From Candidatus Rhodoblastus alkanivorans (lineage in GTDB: Bacteria; Pseudomonadota; Alphaproteobacteria; Rhizobiales; Beijerinckiaceae): 64,000 bases of DNA. Below the pieces are notes generated by a model. The model did not search any database. It had not been told where the DNA came from and was given only the letters and a program-made list of their open reading frames with translations. Where the stretch lies: positions 1-64,000 of the forward strand of contig NZ_JAIVFP010000002.1 in the NCBI RefSeq assembly GCF_022760755.1. The letters are read 5' to 3'. Below are positions 8,301-53,859 of this stretch, piece by piece (within the stretch, counting starts at the first letter, position 1; every line of letters starts with the position of its first letter). A program made the translations under genes and the position numbers.

Positions 8301-9007
8301 CGCTCCTCCGCACCTGGGCAAACGTTTTAGGCTGGTGGATGCACGAACCAGAATCTATGGCGCCCGCAGCCGACGATCTGCGTGCATGGCAGCGTTTTGT
8401 CGCCGACAATCTCGAATTTCGGCTCGGCGTCGCCATCGGCGCTGTGGTGGCGCAAGCGTGGTCCACGGGAGCTGGAGGCGCATTTGCCGTCCCCTCCCTT
8501 GCTGAATGGAAGGCTACGACAGGCCTGCCTTGGTTTGGCTTCTGGGCTCGAGAACTTCTAAGGTGGGGAACCCATGATCCGTTCGTCGCCTTCGCGCTGT
8601 CGCAGAATCTGGCGCAGACGCGCGAGGCGGCGGCAGGGCGCCGAGAGGAGTTCGATGCCTGGTTGAACCAGGAATTCGACGACATCGAGCCAGAGGACTG
8701 GATTGATCCCCAGCTCTTCCTTCAGTGGCAGGGCAACCTACCGCGCAGAGAGTGGATAGAGCCAGCGGAAGGGCCCGAAGCTGTCCAACTGACAGGCACC
8801 AACGGCCGTCGACGACGATACAGCGTCATCCCGGTGGAGAACGGCGGGCTCGTTCGATGGCTCGATCCCGCCGGCTTCGAACTCGCGCGTTCCAACGACA
8901 TTCTCGGAGAGTTCGCAACCCGAAGGATCAGTAACGACTACGAACTTCGCATTAGCCGGAGGGAAACTGCGGTCCATCGCACGTTCTCAGCCGCCCCACG
9001 GCCATAG
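5357..9007 (+). CDS. hamB: Hachiman-like HamB Ski2-type DEAH helicase
   Basis: A 1,216-residue SF2 helicase. About 300 helical N-terminal residues precede motif I (T315 to T322, TPTGSGKT). The DEAH box is at 424-427, the TATLTEGVNLPF motif V is characteristic of Ski2-like helicases, and NLAGRAGRPG forms motif VI. A long C-terminal region follows. HamB proteins share this large Ski2-like layout and act as gatekeepers of the HamA nuclease. The one-base overlap with the upstream nuclease gene indicates translational coupling. An unrelated helicase-nuclease pair cannot be excluded without a profile search. Confidence 0.7.
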   Translation: MPELDAERLEVADTLRRRLAIENELSRPQARAYVRCLQTTWQVPTIQWAERESTRQLADARRLLHAAHIFREIEGAGSARAIDCFRRTGEILEWLSRAADTLRAVIPIELLAGAAYQLGGLPAMASGLLRQVVTEHEGVALYAAFLKADFDGVIRLSAAFWNAHPDLTASDASLRLAAPGVEDDELDEDDDRVVWLFTVELVRSLGLIADSLRRGDDARLETAMAKLYALDEMALRTFSDDASLALSLMRQVADGYKAASIYRPLIALAALNPNRRGKLVAYARDQFSRGRGILWTSQLQGLDRLLRDSSFALCTPTGSGKTLVANMALVKELLLRDHDGLAPLAIYLVPSRALAGEVEAKLRSELGGEMTITALYGGADWGITDYWLTGDEPTVLIATVEKADALMRYLGPILTARLRLLILDEAHQVVPDVGENTRISFSDHSNRSIRLENFVSRVLTQRPDVVRIALTAVAGGAALPVARWIEGRRDAEAVGVRYRSTRQVIGVLETAPNATGRILLDIMNGRTLYIRGEEQPVYLPLRMQPMPQLPAAMRNSLNRFNCLSVLWTALHLVEEDQRILISVTQEPEQTMRWFREALELDSWAAVPRFIAPDGADRARFDEARAACIDYCGEGSFELFLLDQGIATSHGQMPQRLRRLMTEMIERRICPITVATATLTEGVNLPFDLIFLTSLKRRSWDQLTQTQVIAPLSTAEFRNLAGRAGRPGAAKGIEGMTLIALPTQVSSTAAATIPVQRGQLRELQRDYDRLRVSLLREEMDADEVESPLALLLDAIRERAVGLLGVDPDEFLDWLEQVLPTDISSAAGEGATDARSRLADTLDELDGVLLTALEEIARAEDMAMTGARAEEHLVNLWRTTFTSAAAIQEAWLERAFVQRGRAIVETIYPDADERRRLYQYGFSPLVGRRFEEIAPHVRELIAAATNYGDDDAEARIDVFEGIAELLAADRGFGFRVRQTDADQALLRTWANVLGWWMHEPESMAPAADDLRAWQRFVADNLEFRLGVAIGAVVAQAWSTGAGGAFAVPSLAEWKATTGLPWFGFWARELLRWGTHDPFVAFALSQNLAQTREAAAGRREEFDAWLNQEFDDIEPEDWIDPQLFLQWQGNLPRREWIEPAEGPEAVQLTGTNGRRRRYSVIPVENGGLVRWLDPAGFELARSNDILGEFATRRISNDYELRISRRETAVHRTFSAAPRP

Positions 9008-9239: not shown

Positions 9240-9674
9240 GAAGCTACGAAGGCACGTATGATATCGAGCTTCGCGGGGCCATTCGAGGTCGTGGGCGACA
9301 TCGCCGCGGATATCACGCCGGAGGAGCGTGCTGAGAGCGTGAAAATGTGCCGCAATCTGCTCTATCATGCCATGAAGCAGCTTAAACATCGCAGGACCCT
9401 TCGGACGCTGCACATAGGCGGATCGCTTCATTCAGGAATGCGATGGGACAAGGAACGTAAGTTCAAACCGAACGACTATTACGACTTCCACCACGCGACC
9501 GCGGCGCTAAGCTATTGCGACTATTTCCTCACAGATGGTCCACTCCATGTTCTGATCACACGCCCCCAACTCGACCTCGAGCGCGTGAATGACTGTAAGG
9601 TTCTGTCCGATCCTGCAGAGGCGGCCGAAGCGATGCGGTTCGCGACGCGCCCTACCAAGGCAGTTCTCTCTTAA
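9240..9674 (+). pseudogene. C-terminal fragment of a PIN-like protein
   Basis: About 140 codons run in frame from a stop at 9237 to TAA at 9672. The segment YYDFHHATAALSYCDYFLTD followed by SDPAEAAEAM resembles the C-terminal half of a family of PIN-like proteins. No N-terminal half is present: the reading frame starts right where the solo IS66 end (9208-9235) stops. A later IS66 copy inserted at its stop codon, so that the 8-bp duplication overlaps the TAA. A short product from the ATG at 9258 is possible but is probably non-functional. Confidence 0.6.
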
Positions 9675-9735
9675 TTCGAGGTATCCCTCCGCCGTACCAC
9701 GCAGGCACGGGCTGACCGGCTTCAACGCGATCGCT

Positions 9736-11346
9736 TCAGGCGGCCTTGGCGGATGCGGCCGGCGACTGCGGCTTCCAGTTCCACGGCATCAGTTCGTCCA
9801 GTCGGTGCGCGGGGTGGCCGGCGATGCGGGTGAGGACGTCGGCCAGCCAGGCCTGCGGATCGACGCCATTCATCTTGCAGGTGATGATCAGGCTGTACAT
9901 CGCCGCGGCGCGCTCGCCCCCGCGATCCGACCCGCAGAACAACCACGATTTTCTTCCAAGGGCGATGCCGCGCAGGCCTCGCTCAGCAGCGTTGTTCGAG
10001 AGGCAAACGCGCCCGTCCTCAAGAAACAGCGTGAAGGCCGGCCAACGCTTGAGAATGTAATTGATCGCCTTGGCGAGATCGTGCCCGCGCGAGAACTTGC
10101 CGAACTGCTCGCGCAGATAGACTTGGAGATCCTCGATCAGCGGCCGGCTCTGCTTTTGCCGAACCGCCAGGCGCTCCGCGGCGCTCGTGCCGTTGATCGC
10201 GCGCTCGATCTCGAACAGCGCGTCGATGCGGCGCACGACCTCGATCGCGACGGGCGACAGCGGAATCTCCTTTTTGCCGGAGGCCTTGCGCCGCGCGTTC
10301 TCCTCGATGTCGGCCATGATGAAGAACGGTCGCCGCGCATGCGCCCAACACGCCGCCTCCTTGATCGGACCGGGCTTTCGGTCAGCCTGATAAAGCTTGC
10401 CGTAGCCTTCAAAGGCGTCCGCCTGGAAGATTCCGGAATATCCAGCCAGATGCGCCTGCGGATTCTCGCCCCGGCGATTGCGCGAATAATAGAACATCGC
10501 CGCCGGCGGCCCGGCGCCGCCGAAGGGCTTGTCGTCGCGCACGTAGATCCAGCATCGCCCGGTGTCGGTCTTGCCCTCGGCTAGAACTGGCACGGTCGTA
10601 TCGTCGCCATGCAGCCGCTCGGCCGCCATCACATGGGCCTCCATCAGACGAAGGATCGGATTCAGCGCCGCGCAGACCAATCCCACGGAGTCCGCCATGG
10701 TCGACAGCGGGATCGGCACGCCTTCCAGGGCGTAGCGTTCGGCTTGGCGGTTCAACGGCTGGTGCTGGCCGAACTTCTCGAACACGATCATCGCCAGCAG
10801 ACTCGGCCCCGCCCATCCTCTTGGGATGACGTGGAACGGCGCGGGCGCCTGACTGACCTTCTCGCAATTGCGGCAGGTGAACTTTTCGCGCACCGTCTCG
10901 ACCACCTTCCACTGACGCGGCTGCGACTCCAGCGTCCGCGTCACGTCCTCGCCGAGCTTGCGCAGCCGGTGGCCGCCGCAGCATTCGCACGCCGTCGGCG
11001 GCGCGATCACCACCCGTTCGCGGGGAAGATGCTCGGGGAACGTGTTGCGCTCGGGGCGTTGGCGCGTAAATCCGCGCACAGTCGTTGTCTGGGCGACGGC
11101 CTGTTCTGCCGCGAGTTCGTCTTGTGTGGCGCTGGCCTCCGCCTCTTCGAACGCCAGCGACAACTGATCGATTAGGCGCTCCGAGCGCTCGGAACGTTGT
11201 CCATAAATTTGGCGTTCCAGCTTGGCGATCCGCAGCTTCTGCTGCGCGATCAGCGCCGTGTCTTCCGAGGCTTTGGCCCGCGCCACCGCCAACTCCGCTT
11301 TCAGCGCGGCGTTTTCTTCTGCGAGGGCGAGGCGGGCGGCGTCCAT
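9736..11346 (-). CDS. tnpC: IS66 transposase TnpC
   Basis: DDE transposase of the IS66 family, 536 residues from the ATG at 11346 (an upstream in-frame ATG at 11400 would add 18 residues). It has an N-terminal coiled coil ([19 protein letters not shown]), a zinc-binding segment with CECCGG and CRNCEK, and the catalytic core: [21 protein letters not shown] and [10 protein letters not shown]. It closely resembles the TnpC of the second IS66 copy in this window. It appears intact. Confidence 0.95.
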
Positions 11347-11418
11347 GACCCAGAGTGAATCACAAATCGAGCGATTCGAGGCGCCCCAAAATGCGTTCAA
11401 CCCAAGATTTTTTCGCCC

Positions 11419-12457: not shown

Positions 12458-13750
12458 GTGGAGAGCGACTTGAGCGATTCAGAAGACGGCGAGAAACCAA
12501 AGCAAGTTTTCCAGTTTATTCGGGGCTCCGAGTCTGACGGGCGCGAATATGATTGGGCGGAAGGAGCGGAGATCGTCCGCAAAGCTCTCGCAGAATCCCT
12601 TAACGCAAAGAATGTAGCATTCTTGCTGGGCGCTGGATGTTCATCGCTACGTGTTAATGGGGCAGAGGTTGGGATTCCGACCATGGCCCCGCTTGCTGAA
12701 GAATTTACGAAAAAGTTGGAGGAAGACGTCCCTGGCTTGCCAACGGCTAAAGAACGCCAGGCACTGATTGATCGGCTCGGCATTGATATTGGCGCCGACG
12801 AATATGCCCGCAACCTCGAACGTCTCATGGAATTGCTCCACAGCTTGCGCTTCTCTCTGGGACGGAGTTCGCTTGAGGCGGCGAAGAGGGACCTGGAAAT
12901 CGTCGAATCGATCATCGCAAAAGTGCAGGGCTTCCTCTGGGAAAAATGCACACAAGGAAAATTCGCCGAAGGCGACCGGAGTGTCCTGAATCTGTATGAG
13001 ACTTTTTACAGAAAACTCGTTCTCCGCGATCGTTCACTGCCCCGTCCTTGGATATTCACGACCAATTACGATCTTTTCAACGAGACGGCGATGGACAGGC
13101 TCGGCCTGCCGTATGCGAATGGATTCTCCGGCGTTGTTGAGCGCCGGTTCAATCCGGCGACCTTTCGATATGCTCTTGCGGAACAGCTCGATCTGACCAG
13201 CCGCAAATGGTCGGCCGTTGATGGTTTTGTCTATCTCTGCAAAATCCATGGTTCGATCAGTTGGACCGAGGACGATCACGGGCTTTATCCGATCAGGGAG
13301 GCGGCAGCCTCCAACGAGCCCGGGAAAGTGATGATTTATCCCACGCCCGCAAAACAGAACGCCAGCCTCGGATCGCCCTACGCTGACCTTTTTCGTGAAT
13401 TCCAATCGCGGGTCGTACGCGAGCAGAGCGTGCTGTTCACGATGGGCTACGCATTCGGCGACGAGCACATTAACAACATCATTTATCAGGCGCTGACGAT
13501 CCCCACCTTTCGGTTGGTGATCTTTGTTGACCCGACGCTGAAAGGCGAGATTGAGAAACTCAAGGCGTTGAGGGATCCGCGGATCTGGATCATTGGTGGC
13601 GACGGGCCCCAAGCTGGTCGCAAGGCGCACTATTTTGACACGATCATCGAACAGTTCCTGCCGCAGCGCCCGAGTGAACGCATTGACGATGCGATCCGGA
13701 AGGTTCTGGAAGCGATGTCTCCTCCTCGAAAGAGGGAGGAGGCAGAATGA
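12458..13750 (+). CDS. SIR2-like NADase/deacylase-fold protein of a SIR2-HerA system
   Basis: 430 residues with the signatures of defence-type SIR2 domains: FLLGAGCS for the nucleotide loop, FTTNYD with the key Asn near residue 203, and KIHGS with His264. Family members deplete NAD+ on infection. The gene overlaps the HerA ATPase gene by four bases, giving the SIR2-HerA (Nezha-type) pairing. No TIR gene is present, so it is not Thoeris. The start is uncertain: GTG at 12458 has no clear ribosome-binding site, whereas TTG at 12470 sits six bases after GGAGAG and gives MSDSEDGEK. Confidence 0.88.
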   Translation: MESDLSDSEDGEKPKQVFQFIRGSESDGREYDWAEGAEIVRKALAESLNAKNVAFLLGAGCSSLRVNGAEVGIPTMAPLAEEFTKKLEEDVPGLPTAKERQALIDRLGIDIGADEYARNLERLMELLHSLRFSLGRSSLEAAKRDLEIVESIIAKVQGFLWEKCTQGKFAEGDRSVLNLYETFYRKLVLRDRSLPRPWIFTTNYDLFNETAMDRLGLPYANGFSGVVERRFNPATFRYALAEQLDLTSRKWSAVDGFVYLCKIHGSISWTEDDHGLYPIREAAASNEPGKVMIYPTPAKQNASLGSPYADLFREFQSRVVREQSVLFTMGYAFGDEHINNIIYQALTIPTFRLVIFVDPTLKGEIEKLKALRDPRIWIIGGDGPQAGRKAHYFDTIIEQFLPQRPSERIDDAIRKVLEAMSPPRKREEAE

Positions 13751-15768
13751 GTCGGGATGATCGTAAACGCGCCATCGGTAAGGTCGTCTCCGTTGCGGCC
13801 GATCGATTCGTCGTCGAGATGCACGCCGGTACCGACAACTTCACCGTCGTTGGCTTCGATGACGTTCATTACGTCGCTCGGCTCGGCTCATTTCTGATGC
13901 TTCCGGTTCAAACCGAATATGTGGTCGCGGAAGTTGTTGGTCTACGCGAGCAGGATGTGAGCCGCCCTGGTCGTGGCGACGGGGAGATGGACAAAGCGTC
14001 ATCTGCGAAATTTCTGGACGTTGTCCCCGTTGGAATGTTGCCGCAGGACCGCCGGGAGAAATTTCGATTCGGCGTGTCCGTGTTTCCGTCCCTATACGCG
14101 GACGCGCTCTACGCGCTGGATGCGGAACTCGATCGTGTGTTCGAAACGGATGTCCCGAGTGAGCCCGCGCCAAAGAGGGGAGACGATCCGCCAATTCCGC
14201 CCGAGGCGACGCGTTTTCGCGCGCTATCGATCGGCAGGTCTGTCATCTTCGACGGCTACGACGTCAAAGTTCGTATTGATGACTTCTTTGGCGGGCATAC
14301 TGCGGTTCTCGGAAACACCGGCAGCGGCAAGTCCTGCACGGTAGCGTCTGTGCTGCAATCCTTGTTTGACAAAGCCGATGAACACCATGCCCGCGGTGCA
14401 ACCTTCGTCGTCTTCGATGTCAACGGTGAATATGCCAAGGCGCTGACGCCCCTGGCCAATGGGAGCGGGATTGGTGTTGCTCATATTGTGCTTGATGGTT
14501 CGTCGGCGAACGGGCGTTTCCGATTGCCTCATTGGTTCCTTGAGCAGTCGGAATGGGAGTTGCTTCTCCAGGCGAGCGAGCGGACCCAAGTACCAATTCT
14601 GCGCATGGCGCTCGGGCTCTCGACACTATTCTCAGGCGGGAACACGCGCGAGTTGAACGGCATCAAGAACCATATCTTGGCCACTTGCTTAAGCCAGATC
14701 CTTCGGGATGACTCGGGAAGTCCGTCCAAGCATGATCGGATGGTGGGGCTTCTACAACGATTCAATACGGTCGAGATCAACAACCGGATAATCGCCCAAT
14801 ACATCCGGATCAATTATGGCCAAATGGCAAATCCTGAGGGGCTGACCTCCTACCTGCTCGGTGGCGCTCAAGGTGGAGGGTTCATTATCGACGGGCTGAA
14901 GCTTCCCGCCTACGAGAGTCTTCCGTTCGAGTTTTCCGCGCTGGGTGAGGCACTCGACCTTGCGATTCTCTATGAGGAGGCGCACGGAAACAGGCAAATT
15001 CGCGACTATTGTTCCCAGTTGTTGACACGGTTTAAATCGTTGGAGGAGCGCCAAGAATACGCGTTTCTTAGGCAAGATCTTCAGGCTGACGGCAATAATC
15101 CGTCTATCGCCTCATTCCTGGAGCGCCTTCTAGGCTTGTCGCGAAACGGCGCCGGCTGGGTGAAGCAGAACCAGATCGTGATCATCGATATGAACGCGGT
15201 CGAGGACGAAGTCGTGGAACTGGTGGCTTCGGTTTTGGCGCGGATGGCATTCCGCTTGCTCCGCCAGGCTGATCCACGCAACCGCTTTCCCATCCACTTG
15301 TTGCTCGAAGAGGCGCATCGCTACATCGCTTCCACGCCGTCACGTTATGCAATCGACGCAAGCCGCGTCTTTGAGCGCATCGCCAAAGAGGGCCGTAAAT
15401 ACGGGCTGTTCCTGCTCGTTGCCTCTCAAAGACCGAGTGAACTGTCAAAGACCGTGCTGTCGCAGTGCTCAAATTTCGTAATCCACCGCATCCAGAACCC
15501 TGACGATCTCTCGCACATTCGGCAGATGACCCCGTTTATTTCGGATGCGGTCTTGAAGCGCCTGCCATCCTTGCCCAAGCAACATGCGCTGGTATTCGGA
15601 ACATCGGTGAATCTGCCGACGACGTTCAGGGTGCGCGACGCCCATCCGCTTCCCGCGAGCGATGATGCAAAAATCCGGGATCTTTGGTTCCATGAAGAAG
15701 GACGCACGGCTCAGGTCTGCATCGCAGCACCGCCTGTTAACGGCGCCGATGGCGGCGTGGTCGGCTGA
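13747..15768 (+). CDS. herA: HerA/FtsK-type hexameric ATPase of a SIR2-HerA system
   Basis: 673 residues. An N-terminal HAS-barrel-like domain (residues 8-66) precedes the RecA-like motor: Walker A at G189 to S196 (GNTGSGKS), Walker B LLLEEAHRYI at about 517-526, then VASQRPSEL with FVIHRIQNPDD for sensor and arginine-finger regions. HerA forms hexameric rings that translocate DNA and, in SIR2-HerA systems, assemble with SIR2 into a large NAD-depleting complex. It overlaps the SIR2 gene by four bases and the exonuclease gene by one base, so all three are probably co-translated. Confidence 0.9.
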   Translation: MSRDDRKRAIGKVVSVAADRFVVEMHAGTDNFTVVGFDDVHYVARLGSFLMLPVQTEYVVAEVVGLREQDVSRPGRGDGEMDKASSAKFLDVVPVGMLPQDRREKFRFGVSVFPSLYADALYALDAELDRVFETDVPSEPAPKRGDDPPIPPEATRFRALSIGRSVIFDGYDVKVRIDDFFGGHTAVLGNTGSGKSCTVASVLQSLFDKADEHHARGATFVVFDVNGEYAKALTPLANGSGIGVAHIVLDGSSANGRFRLPHWFLEQSEWELLLQASERTQVPILRMALGLSTLFSGGNTRELNGIKNHILATCLSQILRDDSGSPSKHDRMVGLLQRFNTVEINNRIIAQYIRINYGQMANPEGLTSYLLGGAQGGGFIIDGLKLPAYESLPFEFSALGEALDLAILYEEAHGNRQIRDYCSQLLTRFKSLEERQEYAFLRQDLQADGNNPSIASFLERLLGLSRNGAGWVKQNQIVIIDMNAVEDEVVELVASVLARMAFRLLRQADPRNRFPIHLLLEEAHRYIASTPSRYAIDASRVFERIAKEGRKYGLFLLVASQRPSELSKTVLSQCSNFVIHRIQNPDDLSHIRQMTPFISDAVLKRLPSLPKQHALVFGTSVNLPTTFRVRDAHPLPASDDAKIRDLWFHEEGRTAQVCIAAPPVNGADGGVVG

Positions 15769-16661
15769 TGACGGGTGAACCAGATCTCGAAAAATTTGCC
15801 GCTGCTCTGGAGAAAAGCCCAGACTATAAAGTTTTGCGGCGCCTTCAGCCGCGCGCGCCGATCGAAGGGTTTCCTGGCGTTGAAACTCGCGCCGGCCTTT
15901 TTGTCGATGTGGAGACGACAGGCCTCAATCCAGAACTGGATGAGATAGTTGAGTTAGCGATGGTGCCGTTCAGATATGCCCTGGACGGCACTGTGGTTCA
16001 GGTGCTCGACCCATTCGACCGTCTTCGTGAACCGTCCACGCCAATCCCTCCCGAAATAACGGCACTTACAGGCATAACCGCCGAAATGGTGTCTGGAAAA
16101 GAAATCGACCTAGCCGAGGTCGTCAAATTTGCTGCGCCAGCCGCTTTGGTTATCGCCCACAATGCTGCCTTTGATCGTCGCTTTTTGGAGCGGTTCTGCC
16201 CGATGTTTTCGACCAAGCCATGGGCTTGTTCTATGGCAGAGGTTGATTGGGCAGCCGAGGGATTCGAAGGGACGAAGCTTCCCTACCTCGCTATGGCGCA
16301 GGGCTTTTTCTATGATCGACACCGAGCAGCCAACGACTGTCTAGCGGCAATTGAGGTCTTGGCGCGCGAGCTTCCTCGCGCTCGTGTCCCAGCTTTGGCA
16401 AAATTACTTGAACGTGCACGCCAGCCAACGTGGCGCATTTGGGCGGAAAACTCCCCATTTGAATGCAAGGATTTTTTGAAAGCACGTGGCTACCGGTGGA
16501 ACGGCGAAGAGAACGGTCGACCAAGAGCGTGGTACATTGACGTCTCAGACGTTCAAAAGGATGCAGAACTCGTCTATATGCAGCGGGAGATTTATCGATA
16601 CGAGGTCGAGCTCAACCCCGTCCGCGTGACGGCTTATGATCGGTATTCTGACCGGGTCTAG
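15768..16661 (+). CDS. DnaQ-like DEDDh 3'-5' exonuclease with C-terminal domain
   Basis: 297 residues. The exonuclease domain carries Exo I FVDVETTG (D47, E49), Exo II AHNAAFDRRF (D136) and Exo III H185 plus D190, so all DEDDh catalytic residues are present. A C-terminal module (about 215-297) contains CKDFLKARGYRWN and GRPRAWYIDV, a domain seen in stand-alone bacterial DnaQ-like exonucleases. The gene starts one base inside the HerA stop codon, which ties it to the SIR2-HerA operon. Its role there is inferred: end trimming, nicotinamide-independent nuclease arm, or host-DNA protection. Confidence 0.88.
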   Translation: MTGEPDLEKFAAALEKSPDYKVLRRLQPRAPIEGFPGVETRAGLFVDVETTGLNPELDEIVELAMVPFRYALDGTVVQVLDPFDRLREPSTPIPPEITALTGITAEMVSGKEIDLAEVVKFAAPAALVIAHNAAFDRRFLERFCPMFSTKPWACSMAEVDWAAEGFEGTKLPYLAMAQGFFYDRHRAANDCLAAIEVLARELPRARVPALAKLLERARQPTWRIWAENSPFECKDFLKARGYRWNGEENGRPRAWYIDVSDVQKDAELVYMQREIYRYEVELNPVRVTAYDRYSDRV

Positions 16662-16816
16662 CGTTGGGGATCGATGATGATGCGACGCGAGCACATCTGT
16701 CGTTATGCCGGAACACTACAGCGCCGGCACCCAAATCGCTGCGATAGCCAAATGTGATCTTGCTCGGCGAACAGTGATAGCCTGAATGTCCATCGCCCCG
16801 AATTCGGTACGCTCCG

Positions 16817-19012
16817 ATGAAGCCCTCCTTCGATGCAACGCCGCCCAAAGATACGCTCGTCGGCGCGGTCGAGCGGGTCACGTTTCACAATGAGGACACC
16901 GGCTTCGCTGTTTTGAAAGTGAAGGCGCGGGGGCAGCGCGACCTTGTGCCGGTCGTCGGCCACGCCGCGTCGATTTCGGCTGGCGAATTCATCCACGCCG
17001 TCGGCGTCTGGATCACCGACCGAACCCACGGGCTGCAATTCAAGGCGGATTTCCTCAAGACTACGCCGCCGACGACGGCCGAGGGGATTGAGAAATACCT
17101 CGGCTCCGGCATGGTGCGCGGCATCGGCCCGAAGCTCGCCGAGCGGATCGTCGCCGTATTCGGCGCGGCGACGTTCGAAATCATCGAGGCGAGCCCGGAG
17201 AAGCTGAGGGACGTTTCGGGCATAGGCGAGTTCCGCGCCGGAAAAATCGCCGCCGGCTGGGCCGAGCAAAAGGCCGTCCGCGACATCATGCTCTTCCTGC
17301 ACTCCAACGGCGTTGGCACGTCGCGGGCGGTCCGCATCTTCAAGACTTATGGACACGACGCAATCCAGGTCATGACCGAGGATCCCTATCGGCTCGCGCG
17401 CGACATCCGCGGCATCGGGTTTCGCACCGCCGACGCCATCGCCATGAAGCTCGGCATGACGCGCGAAGCGCCGCAAAGGGTGCGCGCTGGCGTCTCCTTC
17501 GCGCTGCAGGAAGCGACCGACGAGGGCCATTGCGGTCTGCCGGCGGAGGACCTCATCAAACTGGCGACGACGCTGCTCGAAGTCGACGCCGGCGTCGTCG
17601 ACGCGGCCCTGGCCCATGAGATCGCCGGCAGCGAGGTCGTTGCGGACACGATCGAGGGGCGATCCTGCATCTTCCTGCGCGGGCTGTATCTCGCCGAGCG
17701 CGGCATCGCCGAACGCCTGCTTGCGTTGGCGCGGGGCGAGCCGCCATGGCCGGCGATCGAAGCCGACAAGGCTGTTCCGTGGGTCGAGAAAAAGACCGGC
17801 AAGACACTGGCGGCGTCGCAGCGCGCCGCGATCGCGATGGTGCTCCGGTCAAAGACGGCCGTAGTCACGGGCGGACCCGGCGTCGGCAAAACGACGCTGC
17901 TCGACGCCATCCTGCGCATCGTCCTCGCCAAGGGAACGAAGATCCTGCTCGCGGCGCCGACCGGCCGCGCCGCCAAGCGAATGTCCGAGCAGACCGGCAT
18001 CGAAGCCAAGACTATCCACCGGCTGCTTGAGACCGATCCCAAGAAGGGCGGGTTCAAACGCAACGCCGAGAACCAGCTTGATTGCGATCTTCTCGTCGTC
18101 GACGAGACCAGCATGCTCGATGCCTCGCTGATGTTCGCCCTGGTGAAGGCCATTCCCCCGAAGGCGGCCCTGCTGTTGGTCGGCGACGTCGACCAATTGC
18201 CGTCGGTCGGTCCGGGGCAGGTGCTTGCCGACGTCATCAATTCCGGCGCCGTCGCGGTCGCCCGGTTGACCGAGGTGTTCCGGCAAGCCGCCGAGAGCCG
18301 GATCGTCGTCAATGCGCATCGCATCAATCGCGGCGAAATGCCGGAATGGACCAAGCCGGGCGAAGACTCCGACTTCTTCTTCGTCGAGGCAGCTGATCCC
18401 GAGGATGGCGCCGCGAAGGTGGTCGAGATCGTCCGCGACAGAATTCCCCGACGCTTCGGCCTCGATCCGGTCCGCGACATTCAGGTGCTGTGCCCGATGC
18501 AGCGCGGGGCCCTTGGCGCGCGGGCGCTCAACGCCGATCTCCAGAACGCCCTAAATCCGAACATGGGCGAGAAAATCGAGCGTTTCGGCTCGGCCTTCGC
18601 TCCGGGCGACAAGGTCATGCAGACCGAAAACGACTACGACCGCGAGGTGTTCAACGGCGATCTCGGCAGGGTCCGGCGCATCGACCAGACCGACGGTGTT
18701 CTGATCGCCGACTTCGACGGGCGCGAGGTCGAATATCCGTTCGGTGAACTCGACGCGCTCGTTCCCGCCTACGCGACGACGATTCACAAGTCGCAGGGGT
18801 CGGAATATCCCGCCGTGGTGATCACGCTGGCGAAACAGCACTACACAATGCTCGCCAGGAACCTGGTCTATACCGCCGTCACCCGGGGCAAGCGCCTCGT
18901 CGTCATCGTCGGACAGCGCAAGGCGCTCGCCATCGCCGTCCGCAGCCATGGGTCGCGACGACGTTGGACGAAACTGCGCGAATGGCTGACGGGGAACGGG
19001 GCGGCGGCATGA
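16817..19012 (+). CDS. recD2: RecD2-like ATP-dependent DNA helicase (SF1B)
   Basis: 731 residues. An N-terminal OB-like domain (GAVERVTFHNEDTGFAVLKV) and helix-hairpin-helix repeats (MVRGIGPKLAERIV, VSGIGEFRAGKI, RGIGFRTADAIAMKLG) precede the motor. Walker A is G352 to T359 (GGPGVGKT), motif II is VVDETSMLD, and the SH3-containing C-terminal part ends with TTIHKSQGSEYPAVV and LVYTAVTRGKRLVVIVG. RecD2 is a 5'-3' helicase acting without RecBC. It follows the SIR2-HerA operon by about 150 bases and may be independent of it. Confidence 0.9.
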   Translation: MKPSFDATPPKDTLVGAVERVTFHNEDTGFAVLKVKARGQRDLVPVVGHAASISAGEFIHAVGVWITDRTHGLQFKADFLKTTPPTTAEGIEKYLGSGMVRGIGPKLAERIVAVFGAATFEIIEASPEKLRDVSGIGEFRAGKIAAGWAEQKAVRDIMLFLHSNGVGTSRAVRIFKTYGHDAIQVMTEDPYRLARDIRGIGFRTADAIAMKLGMTREAPQRVRAGVSFALQEATDEGHCGLPAEDLIKLATTLLEVDAGVVDAALAHEIAGSEVVADTIEGRSCIFLRGLYLAERGIAERLLALARGEPPWPAIEADKAVPWVEKKTGKTLAASQRAAIAMVLRSKTAVVTGGPGVGKTTLLDAILRIVLAKGTKILLAAPTGRAAKRMSEQTGIEAKTIHRLLETDPKKGGFKRNAENQLDCDLLVVDETSMLDASLMFALVKAIPPKAALLLVGDVDQLPSVGPGQVLADVINSGAVAVARLTEVFRQAAESRIVVNAHRINRGEMPEWTKPGEDSDFFFVEAADPEDGAAKVVEIVRDRIPRRFGLDPVRDIQVLCPMQRGALGARALNADLQNALNPNMGEKIERFGSAFAPGDKVMQTENDYDREVFNGDLGRVRRIDQTDGVLIADFDGREVEYPFGELDALVPAYATTIHKSQGSEYPAVVITLAKQHYTMLARNLVYTAVTRGKRLVVIVGQRKALAIAVRSHGSRRRWTKLREWLTGNGAAA

Positions 19013-19135: not shown

Positions 19136-19408
19136 TTACACGACCGTTTGATAGCCGCGCCGACGCTTCGCCGAGATCAGACGCTTGATGCAATCGAAGG
19201 CGTCGTCGGCGCTGTCGCAAAGCTCCAATCGAATTCGGCCCTGACAGCCGATACGACCCCAGCGGCGCACGACCGCCCAGGTCCCAAATAGCGAGGGCTC
19301 AAGCGAGACTTCGTAGAACCTCGCCATGTTCCGCGTCGGGTCGATCCGGCGCAGGTGCACAGCTTCCGAGAATTTGCGCGTAGCGATCTTCAAGTCTGCT
19401 GGGGACAT
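19136..19408 (-). CDS. WGR-domain protein
   Basis: A 90-residue single-domain protein. RRIDPTRNMARFYEVSLEPS followed by LFGTWAVVRRWGRIGCQGR is the WGR signature, a nucleic-acid-binding module also found in PARPs and bacterial DNA-modification proteins. I use the ATG at 19408; a TTG at 19423 would add five residues. It is convergent with recD2. Free-standing WGR genes are frequent on alphaproteobacterial plasmids; their role is unknown. Confidence 0.8.
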   Translation of the reverse strand: MSPADLKIATRKFSEAVHLRRIDPTRNMARFYEVSLEPSLFGTWAVVRRWGRIGCQGRIRLELCDSADDAFDCIKRLISAKRRRGYQTVV

Positions 19409-19664
19409 GTCGAAGAGTCGCAAAGCGCCGACTCCGCGTCCAATTGGAAATTTGAATCAAAGCGCGTCGATTGATTCACGCGCTCGATCGGAGCTCGCCC
19501 ACTTCCGGCGATGGCGTGCGGCACGGCATCGATCTGCAAGAGGGGCTGGCGCTCCGGATCAACTAAGCGCCGCTTTACTGTAACCTCATTCGCAGCTACC
19601 TGACGTTCCTGATCACCAAGCACGAACGCCTTAGCCGGCGCGCGGCGTAGACGTTGGAGGGCGC

Positions 19665-22004
19665 GTGAGCGGCAAAGCCCCAAAGAACCAGACAGAATAC
19701 GACCTCGAGACCGCGATCTCCGCTGCGATCGAAGTCGCATTTCCGCGCTTGGGCGCGTCAAACATCAAGCATCAAATCGAATTCACGATCCGCCTCGGAC
19801 ACGCCACGATCACCGCCAAAGGGCGCGAAAGTTGGATCAAGCGTGGCCGCGCCGACATACTCCTGACCTTGGGCGACAAGCCGCTGGCCATACTGGAGCT
19901 CAAAAAGCGCGACGTATCGCTGTCGGCGAATGACGGCGAACAGGGCCTCTCCTATGCGCGGCTGCTACCCGTCATGGCGCCCTTCGTCGTTGTAACCAAC
20001 GGCGAGGAAACACGGATCATCGAAACCTTCTCGGGTCAGCCCTATCAGGGGGAATCGCCGGACGCGAAAACCTTCGAGGTTTTCATGGCCTCGGCGGCGA
20101 AAGTGGCCGCAGGCGATCGCGATGACGCAATCGCGACGCTGATGGGAACGGATCCGCAGGTTTGGACGAGCGCCGTAGGCGTCGCTTCGGCCAGGGCCAT
20201 CGACGAGCTCACCGCCACGACAGATCATCCTCTGCGCCCCTTCGGTCCGTTGAAGGTTCCTCGCCTGGCGACTCTGCGCGTCGCTTCCAAGTTACGCACC
20301 GCTCGACTGGTGCTGGTGTCCGGCCCGCCTCTCGTCGGAAAGACGAACGTCCTCGAACAGCTCATTCGTGGGATCAATCCGCAGGTGGCCGGCGGCCTGT
20401 TCCTCGAATGCGGGGCGAGCGAAGTCTTTCGACAGATCGCCGACCTACTGGCCGACACGCTCGACTGGCCCGTGGATCCGGAGACGGCACGCAACTGGGT
20501 GCGCCAGGTTTCCCGCGCCGGCGGACCAATTCTCGTTCTCGCCATCGACCGTCTCGATCCGGAAGATCGCGACGATGTTCGGACGATCGAAGACCTCACA
20601 TCGAACACGTTCGGTCCCGCCTTGCGCGTGGTTGTCGGCCTGGACGAGGACGCCACCCGGCGCGTGCTGACAAGCGCCGATGGCCGCAGGGAGTCACCCA
20701 TCGGCCGCCGGGCCACGATCGTAGAAGTCGCCGACCTTGCGGAGCCGGAATATGTCAAAGCGCTCGAAGCCCTGGCTGAGCTGCACATGGGCATCATGGA
20801 CGGCGGGCAGCACAGCCCCGACCTGCGCCGTCCCTGGCTCCTGCAAGCCATGGCAACACGTCTATCGGGGATCAAGCGCGAGGGCGTCGGCGTATTTCCG
20901 GCGGTGCCCGGGCTGGAAATCGTCGCCCAGGCCCGCGCCAACTTCGCCGATCCCGAGTTGCGACGGCGATACCGTGGGCTCGCTCACGCAATCACCGCAG
21001 ACGCCCAAGATCAGAGCAAGCCCTACGCCATGGCGCTCGAACTTATGGGACGGTACTTCGTCCGGCGCGCGACGCTGGAGGGCATCCTACCGGCCTCGGA
21101 CGTCGAGTGGCTCCTCAAGCAGGGTTACCTCACCCCTTCGATTGCCGATGGGAACATCCCCGTCGTGACCGTCGCCCTCCCCGAGCTTCTGGCGAGCGAA
21201 CTCGCGCGCCATCTTTCCGTTGAGCTGCGGGAAATGGTGGAAGACGGTCCCGTCGAGGCCGCCGAGTGGCTTGCGGGCGCAGCCAGCAATTTTCTGTTCG
21301 GCGACATCGTCGCCGCTCAAGCCGTTCTCGACCTCAGCTCGGGCAACGGCGGCGTTCCCTGGGCCCTCTATGATGCGCTGGCGAATATGACACCGGTCCG
21401 GGAGGCCGCTCAGGCCGGACAGCATCTTACGACCTGGGTCGAGGGTGTCGGTTCGATCGATATCCGACCGCAGGAAGACGGTTCAACGATCCTGACGATC
21501 AACGGCGAAGATCATACCGTGGAGGATGACGGCGATGAGCCCAGCTCCTTCGCGAATATACACGGATGGCTGATCCTCTCGCAGTTAGCCTCCCGCCGGT
21601 TTGTGGTCGAGGGAAATGGCAGCCAACTACGGCTCGACCCTGAAGTTCTGCTGCTGGTCGGAACCGCGGATTTCGTCCTGCGGCAGCCGCGCAACGACAT
21701 CCTGATGGACTCGGTGCCGGTTCACGACTCCGACGAAGGCGGCCAGTTCGTTTGCCATAACGCCGGCATCGTTGAGACGGTGACGCAATCGATCCTGAAA
21801 TACCTGTCGAACGAACCTCGCGAGGATCGCGACGCGTTCGTGTCGACGGCGATGGATATCGACAACGTCTATTTGATGGCCCGGCTCGATATCGCCCTGC
21901 GAATGTTGACGCGGTCCACCGATGCCGATCTGGCCGCATGGGCGGTTGAGGTGCTGACCAACACTGTTCGCCCAGCTTTCCTGCGCCATGTGGACGAACA
22001 CTAA
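19665..22004 (+). CDS. HsdR_N-like nuclease fused to P-loop ATPase
   Basis: 779 residues starting at GTG, with GGAGGG just upstream. Residues 1-130 form a type I restriction HsdR_N-like nuclease core: D64 in GRADILL, then E78-L-K80 in AILELKK. A P-loop NTPase follows, with Walker A at G220 to T227 (GPPLVGKT) and Walker B ILVLAIDRLD near 290-297. About 400 helix-rich residues follow, with an acidic stretch (EDDGDEPSS). The layout of nuclease, STAND/AAA-like NTPase and sensor region suggests a defence effector. The closely spaced nuclease gene downstream may be its partner. I do not recognise a named system. Confidence 0.7.
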   Translation: MSGKAPKNQTEYDLETAISAAIEVAFPRLGASNIKHQIEFTIRLGHATITAKGRESWIKRGRADILLTLGDKPLAILELKKRDVSLSANDGEQGLSYARLLPVMAPFVVVTNGEETRIIETFSGQPYQGESPDAKTFEVFMASAAKVAAGDRDDAIATLMGTDPQVWTSAVGVASARAIDELTATTDHPLRPFGPLKVPRLATLRVASKLRTARLVLVSGPPLVGKTNVLEQLIRGINPQVAGGLFLECGASEVFRQIADLLADTLDWPVDPETARNWVRQVSRAGGPILVLAIDRLDPEDRDDVRTIEDLTSNTFGPALRVVVGLDEDATRRVLTSADGRRESPIGRRATIVEVADLAEPEYVKALEALAELHMGIMDGGQHSPDLRRPWLLQAMATRLSGIKREGVGVFPAVPGLEIVAQARANFADPELRRRYRGLAHAITADAQDQSKPYAMALELMGRYFVRRATLEGILPASDVEWLLKQGYLTPSIADGNIPVVTVALPELLASELARHLSVELREMVEDGPVEAAEWLAGAASNFLFGDIVAAQAVLDLSSGNGGVPWALYDALANMTPVREAAQAGQHLTTWVEGVGSIDIRPQEDGSTILTINGEDHTVEDDGDEPSSFANIHGWLILSQLASRRFVVEGNGSQLRLDPEVLLLVGTADFVLRQPRNDILMDSVPVHDSDEGGQFVCHNAGIVETVTQSILKYLSNEPREDRDAFVSTAMDIDNVYLMARLDIALRMLTRSTDADLAAWAVEVLTNTVRPAFLRHVDEH

Positions 22005-22418
22005 ATGCAGGATTTTAGCCATTCGCATCGCTTCGGCGACCGCGAGGCCGCGTTTCCATATACATGCCGCGACGACCAGGCTTGCAACGGCTCCGGTCTT
22101 GACCCATGCGAACTGTCGCCCAAGGACCTGCGAACACGTGAAATCTAGATGCCGGACACTCATATCGACACGATCAAGGTCAAGGCGTGGAACTTCCATT
22201 GAGTGGCGTTCTAACCCGCTCGCACGGCCGCGTTCCGAAGCGGCCGAAGGCCGTGTGACAGACGACTGTGACAAGAGCCGGCCGACACCGATCCTCGGCG
22301 AACGTTTAAGATATTGATATTACGTTATTATTTGTTGCGTGTCGGCAGACGCAAAAATGGAGACGCCGTACTGAAGTATCGTTATAAATAGCGGAGTGTG
22401 ACAACGAGGGCGCGCCGC
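22005..22418. other. Intergenic region between the two nuclease genes
   Basis: No gene can be supported. The segment around 22305-22345 is distinctly AT-rich, and a TATAAA-like box lies at 22384, about 35 bases before the next gene. This suggests that the downstream gene has its own promoter. Confidence 0.4.
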
Positions 22419-24095
22419 ATGAGTACCGTAGAATCGATGCTGCTTTTGGACGGGCCCGCCCTTTCGTCGGACATCGCCCGCAAACTGGTCGCGCAAGGGT
22501 GCTCGGCCGACGTCGCACGGCAAAGGATCAGCCGCGCCGGGCCCAATGTGCGCCGGCTGAAGGGACTGGTTTTTCCGCGCAACGCCCGTTTCCTCTATCA
22601 CGCCAAGCATGAGGGCACCGAGCAATACTGGACTGCCCTGGCCCGCCATATTCGCGAGGCCAGCCCGGCATACGGACCCGCGCTCGCCGCGCTTCAGGCG
22701 CGCGATGGCGTCGTGCCGCTCGACCAGTTCGGGATCATCAGCGGTTCGCCGATCCGTCAGAAGGGCCAGGTCTCCAGCGACACGGTCCTGCAACGCCTCG
22801 AAGCCGTCCATCTCGTCGAGCGCGGCGAGCTGCAGGGTGTCGGACCCGTCGTCTCCCTTCGCGCTGACGGGCGCCTAGGCCATCCGAATTTCCAGCGGCT
22901 GCGCGCCCGCCTTGTCGTCGAAAAGATGCTGCTCCTGGCATTGCGCGACTGGGCCCGACGCTTGGGCGTCGCAAGCTATGACAAGATCGAAATCCGGGGA
23001 GAGACCGATCGCCTGCCGACGTTCGGCACGTTCAACTGGGACCTATGCGGCCCGTCCTACATGGTGCCGATCGTCCGCCGTCAAAAGGATGCGCCGCCAA
23101 AGCCCGGGTTCCTCGTGGGCGACGTCATCGCCGGCGCGGCCGTCGACGAACATGCTGTCGCGGCCTTCATCCGCAAATTTAGCCTGTCATCCTACCTGAA
23201 AAACCTCTCGCCGTTCATGCCCGTGCTCATGGCGGACGGGTATACCCAGGAGGCGTTCAACCTCGGACGCGCGCACGGGATAATGTTGGCGACCCCTAAG
23301 AACCTGTTCGGGCGCGACGTCGCCGTCGGGCTCGCGACCTTGCTTGAAACCCTGAGCAAGGCGGCCGCGGTCGCGGTCGCCAAGCCAGAGGTCATCGGCG
23401 AGCTGTTCGACAAGCTGAGCAGCATCGACGGGGCGGACCGGAACCTGCGCGGCTCTCTCTTCGAGCTCGTCGTCGGCCATGTCGTGCAAGCCCGCCACGG
23501 CGGATCGATTGATATCAATCACCTAATCCGATACGACACCTTCAAGGCGGAGATCGATGTTCGCAGGGTCGTCGCCGGCGAGGTCTGGATCTACGAGTGC
23601 AAGGGCTATCAGCCCGACCATCTGATCGATGCGCCGGAAATCGAGGCATGGCTGACCGAAAAGGTTCCTGGCGTCTACCGCGCCACGAAGGGCGAGGACC
23701 GCTTCAACACTTCCATGGTGCATTTCGAATTCTGGACCAGCGGCGGCTTCACCGACGCAGCGATCGCGGCGCTCGAGACGGCACGCGACAAAACGAAACG
23801 CTATGTCATTGGTTGGAAGACCGGCAAAGAGGTCCGGAACGAACTGGCGAGGCTGTCGTCCTCCGGCATGACGGCGATGTTCGATCAACATTTCCTCAAG
23901 CACCCGATCGCCGGATTCGACCGCCGCCACGATGGAGCCGGTGCCCTCGCCGGCATCGGCATCGATGCGACCGTTGCGGCCGATCCCATCGAGCCATCTG
24001 TGCCCGCCCCGCCGAAGCGCCAGTCGCCTCAGGAGATCCGCGCTGAGGTTCAGGCCGCCAAGGCCTACGAGCGCTCCGCTTACGCTGCCGAGTGA
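22419..24095 (+). CDS. Restriction-endonuclease-like protein with N-terminal winged-helix region
   Basis: 558 residues from the ATG at 22419, which has GAGGG nine bases upstream; GTG at 22398 is an in-frame alternative. The first 140 residues contain two DNA-binding-like segments (ALSSDIARKLVAQGCSADVA and KGQVSSDTVLQRLEAVHLVE). The C-terminal part has a PD-(D/E)XK pattern: RGSLFELVVGHVV, D380 in FKAEIDVRR, then E393-C-K395 in IYECKGYQ. I recognise no named family. The position behind the HsdR_N-ATPase gene suggests a two-gene nuclease system. Confidence 0.65.
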   Translation: MSTVESMLLLDGPALSSDIARKLVAQGCSADVARQRISRAGPNVRRLKGLVFPRNARFLYHAKHEGTEQYWTALARHIREASPAYGPALAALQARDGVVPLDQFGIISGSPIRQKGQVSSDTVLQRLEAVHLVERGELQGVGPVVSLRADGRLGHPNFQRLRARLVVEKMLLLALRDWARRLGVASYDKIEIRGETDRLPTFGTFNWDLCGPSYMVPIVRRQKDAPPKPGFLVGDVIAGAAVDEHAVAAFIRKFSLSSYLKNLSPFMPVLMADGYTQEAFNLGRAHGIMLATPKNLFGRDVAVGLATLLETLSKAAAVAVAKPEVIGELFDKLSSIDGADRNLRGSLFELVVGHVVQARHGGSIDINHLIRYDTFKAEIDVRRVVAGEVWIYECKGYQPDHLIDAPEIEAWLTEKVPGVYRATKGEDRFNTSMVHFEFWTSGGFTDAAIAALETARDKTKRYVIGWKTGKEVRNELARLSSSGMTAMFDQHFLKHPIAGFDRRHDGAGALAGIGIDATVAADPIEPSVPAPPKRQSPQEIRAEVQAAKAYERSAYAAE

Positions 24096-24625: not shown

Positions 24626-25377
24626 TCACAAAATGCCCCAGGCGCGATAGCGCCGCCGCCCGGTGAGCTCGCGCAGCCCCAGCTCGGCGATAAGATTCTG
24701 CCCCGCCCGCGCCGAAACTCTGAGCTCCTGCGCCAGCAGCTCCGCGGTGACGATCGGCCGGGCGAGAGCCAGATCCAACGCCTGCGGCAGATGCGAATTC
24801 CCCCTCCTGCCCTGCAACTTGCCCGCGCGTCCGGCGCGGGCGAGCAGCCAGCGGTCATGATCCTTCTGGCCTTTTTCGGCGGCGGCCAGAACCGCCGCCA
24901 GCCAGAACAGGATTTTGGCGACCGGATCGGCTGGTTTGAGCCGCAGCCGCGGGACCGCGCGGGCGCCGGAATTCACGCACAACAGATGGCTGCGCGTTTT
25001 TCCACGGTCACGCAACAGGGCGGCGGCGAGCAGGCGGCCGAGCCAGGGCGCATGTTGCAGCGGCTCGATGTCGTCCCACAAAGCCGCGGTCAAAGCCGCC
25101 GCCAGCACCGGCGGCAGGCCGGAAGTGAATTCCACCGCCTCCCGCCATTGCGCGAGCCGCTCGTCCTCGTCCCAGTCAAGATCGTAGACCAGTGGATCGC
25201 GTTCCTCTCGGTCGATCGCCGGCTTGCGTTCGAGCGCGCGCGTCGTGCGGTCGAGCGCGGCGTCAAGCGCCGCCAGTTCGGGGCCAAGCGGATCGTCGCG
25301 ATCGGAAAAAGGCTCATCGTCGAAAGCCCCCTCCCCTTCCGGCTCATCGCTGTTCTTCGGCTTCGCCACCTCTTCCT
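24626..25377 (-). pseudogene. DUF1612 / RHE_PE00001-family gene, 3' part (split by Tn3)
   Basis: C-terminal 250 or so codons of a protein of the DUF1612, HTH-containing RHE_PE00001 family common on rhizobial plasmids. A charged linker leads into a helical domain, and the end (RPIVTAELLAQELRVSARAGQNLIAELGLREL) is a helix-turn-helix. The 5' part is at 29140-29514. Removing the transposon and one copy of the TTCCT duplication joins the two in frame to an uninterrupted 373-residue protein. An internal ATG at 25369 could allow a truncated product. Confidence 0.85.
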
Positions 25378-29139: not shown

Positions 29140-29514
29140 TTCCTCGCCGGCGGCGCCAAAGCCGCCGCTGCGCAGAGCGACGAGGCCGTCGGGCGACAGC
29201 GCCCAGCCCGGCGCCATGGAGAGGATTCGCCGGCGCGCGCCGAGCACGCGGGCGGCGCGGATAAGCTCCGCCGTCGGCGCGCGCGCGTCCATTCGCGCGT
29301 CGTGCAGCACGAGGTCTTCAAGATGCGCCAGCTCGCCGTCAAACCACAGGCTGGCGCAGGCGTCGGAAAAATGGCTGCGTTCGATCCAGCCTTGCCGGAT
29401 CGGGCTCGCCCGCAGCCGCTCGTCGAGCCGGGCGAGCGAGTCCTCGGCTTGCGCCAGGGGCGCGTAGATTCGCTCCCAATCGAGCCTTTCGACGATTCTT
29501 TGGTCGGCTTTCAA
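29140..29514 (-). pseudogene. DUF1612 / RHE_PE00001-family gene, 5' part (split by Tn3)
   Basis: N-terminal 120 or so codons, from ATG at 29514: RIYAPLAQAEDSLARLDERL, HFSDACASLWFDGELAHLEDLVLHDARMD and PGWALSPDGLVALRSGG are family landmarks. The frame now runs about 20 codons into the transposon end before stopping. The rest of the gene lies at 24626-25377. This insertion inactivated a gene usually linked to plasmid replication or integrase regions. Confidence 0.85.
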
Positions 29515-29640: not shown

Positions 29641-29715
29641 CATACCCTTTAAAGCCGCAAAATGGGGGTCAAAACCGCCCGCACGCCGCGGGAGCGCCCA
29701 GAGAGAGCCTTCGCC

Positions 29716-30894
29716 ATGGACCCGACCCGCCGCCCGATCGCGCGCGCCAAACAGGCCGCCGAGGACCGCCGCGCGCTCGAGCTCGACGCGCTCGACGCGA
29801 TCCTGCCGATGGACCGGCGCGACGCCCTCGCTGGGCTTCTGACCGACGACGACGTCGCGACCCTCAAACATCTGGCGGGCGAAGGGATCGGCGAGAACAG
29901 CCTCCGCGCGCTCGCCTCCGACCTCGCCTATCTCGAAGCCTGGTCTCTGGCCGCGACTGGCGCCCCCCTGCCCTGGCCGGCGCCGGAATCGCAGGCTTTG
30001 AAATTCGTCGCGCATCATTTGTGGGACCCGCAAAAACGCGAGGCCGACGCCTTGCATGGCATGCCGGCCGCGGTCGAAGCAAGCTTGCGCGACAAGGGGC
30101 ATTTGCGGAGCCTGGGTCCGCACGCGCCCGCCACCGTCAAGCGGCGGCTGGCCCATTGGGGCACTTTGCATCGCTGGCGCGGCTTTGACGGGCCCTTTGC
30201 CGCCCCGACCCTGCGGGCGGCGCTACGCCTCGCCGTGCGCGCCTCGGCGCGGCCGCGCGGGCGCAAAAGCCAAAAAGCGGTGACGCGCGACGTACTCGAC
30301 CAGCTCATCGCCGTCTGCGACTGGAACCGTCTCGTCGATTTTCGCGACAAGGCGTTATTGCTGACCGCCTTTGCTTCCGGTGGCCGCCGCCGCAGCGAAA
30401 TCGCCCGCCTGCGGCTCGAGCAGATTTTTGTCGAGCCGCCCGTCCCGCTCGATCCCGCCGATCCGCGCTCCGAAGCCCTGCCCTGCCTGTCGATCGTGCT
30501 CGGCCGAACCAAAACCGGCTCGGCCGACGAGGAGACGCGCGTGCTGCTGATCGGGCCGCCGGTTCTGGCGCTGCAGGCATGGATCGCCAAAGCGGGGATC
30601 GCGAAAGGCGCGGTGTTTCGCGCCATCGACCGTTGGGGGACGCTGCAGGACAAGGCGTTGACGCCGCAGGCGGTAACTCTGATCGTCAAGGCGCGCTGCG
30701 CCCAGGCCGGGCTCGATCCTTCCGCGTTTAGCGCCCATGGCCTGCGCTCCGGCTTTTTGACCGAGGCGGCGCGGCGCGGCGTGCCTCTGCCCGAAGCCAT
30801 GCGCCAGTCGCAGCACCGCTCGGTGCAGCAGGCGGCGCGCTATTACAACGACGCCGAAGCGCGGCTCGGCGCCGCGGCGCGGCTGCTGGTGTGA
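29716..30894 (+). CDS. Tyrosine recombinase / phage-type integrase
   Basis: 392 residues from the ATG at 29716; an ATG at 29662 overlaps the proposed -10 region, so I do not use it. A SAM-like core-binding region (NSLRALASDLAYLEAWSLA) is followed by the catalytic domain: FASGGRRRSEIARL for the first Arg, GRTKTGS for the Lys, SAHGLRSGFLTEA for His-x-x-Arg, QHRSVQQAARYYND for the second His and the nucleophilic Tyr. All catalytic residues appear present. It was once adjacent to the DUF1612 gene, as in rhizobial plasmids, and it may serve plasmid resolution. Confidence 0.9.
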   Translation: MDPTRRPIARAKQAAEDRRALELDALDAILPMDRRDALAGLLTDDDVATLKHLAGEGIGENSLRALASDLAYLEAWSLAATGAPLPWPAPESQALKFVAHHLWDPQKREADALHGMPAAVEASLRDKGHLRSLGPHAPATVKRRLAHWGTLHRWRGFDGPFAAPTLRAALRLAVRASARPRGRKSQKAVTRDVLDQLIAVCDWNRLVDFRDKALLLTAFASGGRRRSEIARLRLEQIFVEPPVPLDPADPRSEALPCLSIVLGRTKTGSADEETRVLLIGPPVLALQAWIAKAGIAKGAVFRAIDRWGTLQDKALTPQAVTLIVKARCAQAGLDPSAFSAHGLRSGFLTEAARRGVPLPEAMRQSQHRSVQQAARYYNDAEARLGAAARLLV

Positions 30895-53858: not shown

Positions 53859-53859
53859 A

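Follow-up and report, generated by a model that had tools for sequence, protein, structure and literature searches.

Two adjacent nuclease genes in a Rhodoblastus defence island, probably independent: a compact STAND/NLR-like candidate and a solitary restriction-type candidate

Introduction

Solitary nuclease genes, such as those of Upx and other single-gene PD-(D/E)XK defence proteins, are found in bacterial defence islands. AVAST (Avs) proteins have an N-terminal effector, a central STAND-like NTPase and a C-terminal region, and their known nuclease effectors are of the Mrr and Cap4 types. PD-(D/E)XK nucleases also form the N-terminus of the type I restriction subunit HsdR and, as Mrr/NERD/Card1-type enzymes, occur in type IV restriction and as CRISPR ancillary proteins. 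Here we compare with these systems two adjacent genes, A and B, from the first 64 kb of contig C2 (NZ_JAIVFP010000002.1) of the 4.35 Mb assembly of Candidatus Rhodoblastus alkanivorans, a stretch that we call the window. An original prediction from this DNA had treated them as one two-gene nuclease system. Our analysis indicates that these candidate defence nucleases are probably independent of each other and were acquired separately, with A a compact STAND/NLR-like sensor-effector and B a solitary restriction-type nuclease.

Results

Genes A and B rarely occur together

The two open frames lie on the same strand with a gap of 414 bases between them, as originally described:

19665..22004, + strand: gene A, GTG start at 19665, stop codon ending at 22004, 779 amino acids; HsdR_N-type nuclease, putative STAND/AAA-like NTPase and a largely helical C-terminal region
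22005..22418, no strand: gap between genes A and B, 414 bases
22419..24095, + strand: gene B, PD-(D/E)XK nuclease gene, 558 amino acids from the ATG at 22419 (565 from the GTG at 22398, the mechanical open reading frame)

Homologues of gene B align from about the internal ATG at 22419 and not from the GTG at 22398, so its residue numbering (D380/E393/K395) and the length of the gap are based on the ATG.

A genuine two-gene defence system, in which A senses and signals and B serves as a second nuclease effector, would fit their shared strand, their adjacency, the nuclease domain in each and the defence-island setting. The distribution of the two families argues against it. A search for gene B in 11 other gene-A-bearing genomes or records (5 of the 18 gene-A plasmid records were searched whole) gave none, and neither did a search for gene A in 6 plasmid records with gene B; as a positive control, the same queries matched elsewhere down to 28% identity for A and 36% for B. 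Among 394 genomes of the family that contains Rhizobium sp. NFR07 (G480, the source of gene-A locus L026), A was present in seven, B in five and both in one (Fisher p = 0.086), and in that genome (G748) they are on different contigs, C3 and C4. Among 100 relatives, counting the genome of the window itself, A was detected in that genome alone and B there and in two others, while in a class sample of 385 genomes each was detected only in the genome of the window. The two genes are neighbours in the window; a comparison with 17 further A loci and 25 further B loci gave no second case. The gap of 414 bases fits two separately acquired genes, and gene A retains beside it the remnant of a different neighbour (described below). 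We therefore rejected the two-gene system, which we regard as very improbable.

Gene B had also been suggested to be possibly under separate regulation, which a simple scan of the gap did not bear out: it found no terminator-like site, no promoter-like site on the + strand and a single promoter-like site on the - strand, near the number expected by chance.

Gene A joins an HsdR-type nuclease to a P-loop NTPase

Gene A can be divided into the following parts, followed by the long C-terminal tail:

19695..20039, + strand: nuclease domain, residues 11-125, with D64, E78 and K80, the HSDR_N match at 60-125 and a helix-strand order taken from the model
20265..20726, + strand: NTPase domain, residues 201-354, with Walker A at 220-227 and Walker B at D295
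21060..21173, + strand: putative winged-helix-like segment, residues 466-503, with H-H-E-E order in the model (mean pLDDT, the predicted local distance difference test, 60)

Against Pfam, the protein matched HSDR_N with 31.5 bits (cut-off 25.1) over residues 60-125, HSDR_N_2 with 25.2 bits, barely over the cut-off of 25, and AAA_16 with 24.1 bits, under the cut-off of 32.6. It is also a full-length match to phrog_26510 in PHROGs (E 4e-79). D64, E78 and K80 are identical in all 16 gene-A rows that cover those positions, G225-K226 of Walker A in 17/17 covering rows and D295 of Walker B in 16/16, so that the predicted HsdR_N-like nuclease joined to a P-loop NTPase and a long tail held up well. 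The active-site residues of both gene A and gene B are conserved far beyond chance.

The gene-A alignment comprises 11 sequences. It leaves out the split or truncated copies L019, L021, L026, L028 and L047, one of each pair of near-duplicates (L017, which resembles L027, and L025, which resembles L024) and L065, which was obtained later. A Pfam scan of 11 members at E 0.1 gave HSDR_N in 11/11 and, with weak scores, AAA_16 in 10/11, nSTAND_NTPase5 in 6/11 and nSTAND3 in 3/11; no C-terminal repeats were recognised in these members, whose proteins measure about 780-815 amino acids. PDB sequence searches with genes A and B returned weak matches only.

By our domain reading, a structural model of gene A, built from 7 sequences, begins with an N-terminus that resembles restriction nucleases and has an NTPase at residues 201-354; residues 466-503 look like a winged helix and may be the one expected after a STAND/ORC-type NTPase. 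Foldseek returned 32 PDB matches at E <= 0.001 with NLRC4 at the top and, among the others, ORC/Cdc6, AVAST5, CED-4 and one chain of a maltose-system regulator; the best viral structure model for gene A is one named NLR-like. Taken together, sequence and model suggest that gene A most likely encodes a compact sensor-effector of the STAND/NLR-like kind, equipped with an HsdR-type nuclease. In our reading it would work like Avs proteins, which does not imply that it belongs to them.

Given a STAND fold in its details, we propose that the C-terminal helical region would sense a signal of infection and that the NTPase would bind ATP and oligomerise. The oligomer would then switch on the N-terminal HsdR-type PD-(D/E)XK nuclease against DNA, and its activity would stop the phage or the cell.

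Gene A is scattered over plasmids and genome contigs and had other neighbours

By tblastn, relatives of gene A are present in 18 of 72,556 plasmid records, and a scan of genome contigs gave 7 loci. The 18 loci compared include the near-duplicates L017/L027 and L024/L025 and thus represent fewer independent events; for the count of neighbours, L065 stood in for L021, a split copy from E. coli, and L068 and L069 entered no count. No family was common to more than 5 of the 18 loci within four predicted frames on each side. In Bradyrhizobium and in a Sphingomonas bin (85% identical) gene A lies about 72 bases after an AddA-like gene. It is preceded by a Tmn-like gene in L029 and in L020, where Pfam identifies that gene as a YobI ATPase. 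A relative in E. coli E2865, annotated as an HsdR N-terminal domain protein, sits beside prophage-like genes, and DNA resembling the E. coli copy occurs in 234 of 5,426 E. coli genomes. Broken copies are common: L019 is in two frames, L026 has a stop, L028 has a replaced C-terminus, and L047 lacks the N-terminus and lies beside a relative of IS6 transposases.

Scans of viral contigs gave no relatives of A or B, and phage records gave no match to either, although PHROGs has a full-length gene-A family. The members of that family are possibly predicted prophages.

On Agrobacterium plasmids gene A stands in a row of five genes, AbiEi-AbiEii-UP284-A-TIGR02391. This row was found on pAt1D1609a (L017), in L018, L026 and L027, and on the pTi of strain Ach5. 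Its genes overlap or lie a few bases apart, and its gene A is 70% identical to that of the window. The annotation of pTi Ach5 gives UP284 (284 amino acids in L017) a shorter frame of 213 codons, and that of an older Ti record splits gene A into pieces. Part of this row is preserved in the window:

19492..19650, + strand: decayed 3' end of UP284, residues 232-282 of 284 at 79% identity, interrupted by an in-frame stop codon at 19564-19566 (by tblastn and translation; the match itself covers 19492-19647)

The spacing between this remnant and the start of gene A is the same as in L017. Searches of the window by tblastn gave neither AbiE nor TIGR02391. The remnant indicates that gene A was once joined to neighbours other than gene B.

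Gene A could instead be the core of a larger module made up of the whole Agrobacterium row, with the window holding a decayed, non-working remnant. Consistent with this, the five genes stand in a row in 4 of the 18 loci (L017, L018, L026 and L027, not all independent) as well as on pTi Ach5, L045 has AbiE-UP284 beside a convergent gene A, and the 3' end of UP284 is retained in the window. However, 12 of the 18 loci have no UP284 gene among the neighbours and showed no remnant of it (tblastn was run in loci up to L030 only), and gene A of the window keeps its full frame and all its catalytic residues. In L045, moreover, UP284 accompanies AbiE and gene A lies on the opposite strand, which suggests that UP284 is a companion of AbiE. 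We consider the larger module unlikely.

Our reading of gene A as a sensor-effector can be extended to its relatives, with less confidence. It is possible, if not the likelier outcome, that gene A is the founding member of a compact, NLR-like family of immune proteins that couple an HsdR-type nuclease directly to a STAND switch. This family would be spread over plasmids of rhizobia and Agrobacterium (Ti included), Bradyrhizobium and prophage-linked E. coli loci, and on the Agrobacterium plasmids it would work with AbiE, UP284 and TIGR02391 companions.

Some other features recur around gene A. Relatives of the AddB/AddA-like pair of the window immediately precede gene A in L024, as does the AddA part in L025, and in L029 they come a few kb after gene A; those of L024 and L029 are 36-39% identical. 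The tyrosine recombinase and DUF1612 families found farther downstream in the window are also near gene A in L020, L029 and L046. In L044 (1-4763), a DNA methyltransferase relative stands beside a 1144-amino-acid frame. The two, about 6 kb away from gene A and separated from it by a gene on the opposite strand, may form a restriction-modification set of their own.

Gene B is most likely a solitary nuclease

Gene B has the following nuclease core:

23451..23738, + strand: nuclease domain of gene B, residues 345-440 (numbered from the ATG), with E349, D380, E393 and K395

All four residues are invariant across the alignment of 23 sequences (the window, 6 genomes and 16 of 358 plasmid records), in agreement with the D380/E393/K395 nuclease of the original prediction. 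An N-terminal winged helix, also predicted, found no support: no profile matches it, and a single-sequence model was unusable (pLDDT 36.5). The window protein has no Pfam match over cut-off, no PADLOC match and no NCBIfam match. The family profile gave weak matches to DUF1887/Card1 chains (E 0.029 and 0.26), located in the nuclease region. Of 13 members, five matched CARF_PDDEXK models (best E 2.4e-5; not the window protein, and the matched stretch may be the nuclease only), five Csx1 models, four Mrr_cat (best E 0.0051; again not the window protein), two Card1_endonuc and one NERD, while DUF4143 was found in 5/13 and DUF234 in 4/13. An internal duplication yielding two PD-(D/E)XK folds, suspected from the alignment, reached a profile-profile probability of only 8.5% and is not claimed.

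Relatives of gene B are present in 358 of the 72,556 plasmid records by tblastn and, among the 40 matches listed, are mostly labelled hypothetical protein. Across 26 loci, one of them (L052, with one stop in frame) counted by position only, no family was common to more than five within four predicted frames on each side. A Gabija-like ATPase gene, our name for what is annotated as an AAA ATPase or ATP-dependent endonuclease, is near gene B in five loci, four of which also have a UvrD-type helicase relative, and an AbiE-type toxin is near it in four. With no constant partner, a solitary restriction-type nuclease is the simplest reading, and from its sequence gene B is most likely such a PD-(D/E)XK nuclease of defence islands and plasmids. 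Its N-terminal region would bind DNA and its Mrr/NERD/Card1-like PD-(D/E)XK domain would cut incoming DNA, giving a presumed anti-phage activity.

In the enterobacterial loci L016, L062, L066 and L067, gene B is closely followed by a gene of 375-389 amino acids, annotated DUF4238 in three of the four.

Evidence that weighs against this reading

Several observations count against two independent genes of these kinds. One of the 394 genomes does carry both, p = 0.086 alone is not a strong exclusion, and the surveys of 394 and 385 genomes scored only the best two to three candidate places per genome. In several loci another gene follows closely downstream of gene B (one of the DUF4238 type in 4/26). 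Gene A is tightly spaced with both its upstream and its downstream gene on the Agrobacterium plasmids, and may need partners that are missing in the window. Its only broad PADLOC match is to MTase_II (11/11 members, best E 9.1e-6), which in the window protein falls in the nuclease region. The gene-A model is mediocre (mean pLDDT 60, predicted template modelling score 0.46), and the structural matches have a template modelling (TM) score of 0.18 or less on the query, with a root-mean-square deviation of 14 Å or more for the 32 best. With such low TM-scores the matches support the NTPase class and not the detailed fold, and STAND membership is suggested by local similarity of fold and motifs.

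The same structural search also bears on two other views of gene A. ORC, Cdc6, RFC and MuB chains score almost like NLRC4, and ORC/AAA+ chains in general about as well as NLR-type ones, as would be expected if gene A were an AAA+/ORC-like DNA-loading ATPase with a nuclease, acting in DNA processing or in plasmid or prophage maintenance and not as an NLR-like sensor; its occurrence on plasmids and, in E. coli, beside prophage-like genes would suit such a role. Against this stand the nSTAND profiles and the AVAST5, NLRC4 and CED-4 matches, and the sporadic presence and frequent decay of gene A look more like defence. On balance we doubt the AAA+/ORC alternative. The HsdR subunit of EcoR124I is a further, weak structural match (rank 38, E 1.4e-3). 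With the HSDR_N match over the Pfam cut-off, the RefSeq name 'type I restriction endonuclease' given to gene-A relatives and the L044 methyltransferase relative about 6 kb from gene A, across an opposite-strand gene, it would be in keeping with a variant type I restriction R subunit. Neither DEAD, ResIII nor any other SF2 helicase family was among the Pfam matches of gene A or the 11 aligned members, however, and no HsdM or HsdS is annotated beside it in the annotated gene-A loci. We rejected the HsdR assignment for want of the helicase and hold it to be highly unlikely.

The surrounding defence island

The predicted defence-island setting was borne out by the other defence-type genes of the window (Hachiman-like, SIR2-HerA, RecD2, NERD-NACHT, AddAB-like and OLD/UvrD):

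90-3491: fusion of a NERD nuclease with a NACHT-type NTPase
4398-9007: Hachiman-like pair with a clear HamB (E 9e-46) and a weakly matched HamA (E 1.9e-4)
12458-15768: SIR2-HerA pair, the frames overlapping by a few bases
51159-57300: AddB/AddA-like helicase-nuclease pair
57489-61711: OLD-like TOPRIM ATPase and UvrD helicase, in our reading Gabija-like

The SIR2-HerA pair is directly followed by a DEDD 3'-5' exonuclease and the RecD2 helicase, and 12458-19012 is possibly an extended SIR2-HerA operon. A small WGR-domain frame (19136-19423, - strand) lies between RecD2 and gene A. Upstream, a 331-amino-acid + strand frame (9589-10584) is antisense to an IS66-type transposase frame (9736-11400, - strand) and is likely not a gene.

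Downstream of genes A and B, a DUF1612/HTH_13 gene is in two pieces (24626-25369 and 29170-29460) that flank what we read, from a resolvase and a 993-amino-acid open frame, as a probable Tn3-like element. A tyrosine recombinase at 29662-30894 lies next to the split gene.

Discussion

A false two-gene system is thus replaced by two separately testable candidate nucleases. Genes A and B appear to be candidate defence genes of known kinds with no name in the libraries searched, and the earlier statement that they belong to no named system stands to that extent. A check against PADLOC gave no convincing defence model for either: gene A matches MTase_II, and gene B of the window matches none. We recognised no published account of A or B among the open-licence papers listed by our searches and found no test of defence activity for either. 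If our reading of gene A is true, it would add a restriction-enzyme nuclease to the effectors carried by small NLR-like bacterial sensors, and would explain an unnamed gene of Agrobacterium Ti plasmids and of E. coli. Such a protein would look like a compact bacterial counterpart of the NLR sensors in animal and plant immunity.

Comparison with known systems

Two published genes can be set beside gene A by description only. The Gifsy prophage defence gene with an ATPase encodes a ParA/AAA_31-like protein by the account of its authors (PMC12724215), and a Campylobacter 'HsdR N-terminal' gene spans about 1 kb (PMC8713573). The Agrobacterium row on pAt1D1609a and pTi Ach5 is closer, with its 70% identical gene A and an upstream junction spaced as in the window; the window, in contrast, has only a fragment of UP284.

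With type I HsdR, gene A has in common the N-terminal PD-(D/E)XK domain (HSDR_N; D64/E78/K80), but not the SF2 helicase or annotated HsdM/HsdS neighbours. With Avs proteins it shares the order of effector, NTPase and C-terminal region, and AVAST5 is among its best structural matches. The effectors of Avs1-4 are called nuclease-based in the Avs5 paper (PMC12931631). Gene A differs in its short length, in having no recognised C-terminal repeats and in its HsdR_N-type effector. None of the 11 members had a PADLOC Avs model at E 0.1, and assignment to a known Avs type by sequence was rejected.

Gene B shares its nuclease core and E-D-ExK residues with the Mrr/NERD/Card1-type nucleases, but the window protein matches no model over a curated cut-off and has about 340 N-terminal residues with no assigned domain. 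No Upx model was among the PADLOC matches of the 13 gene-B members at E 0.5; as a solitary nuclease gene in a defence island, gene B nevertheless resembles Upx and the other single-gene PD-(D/E)XK defence proteins.

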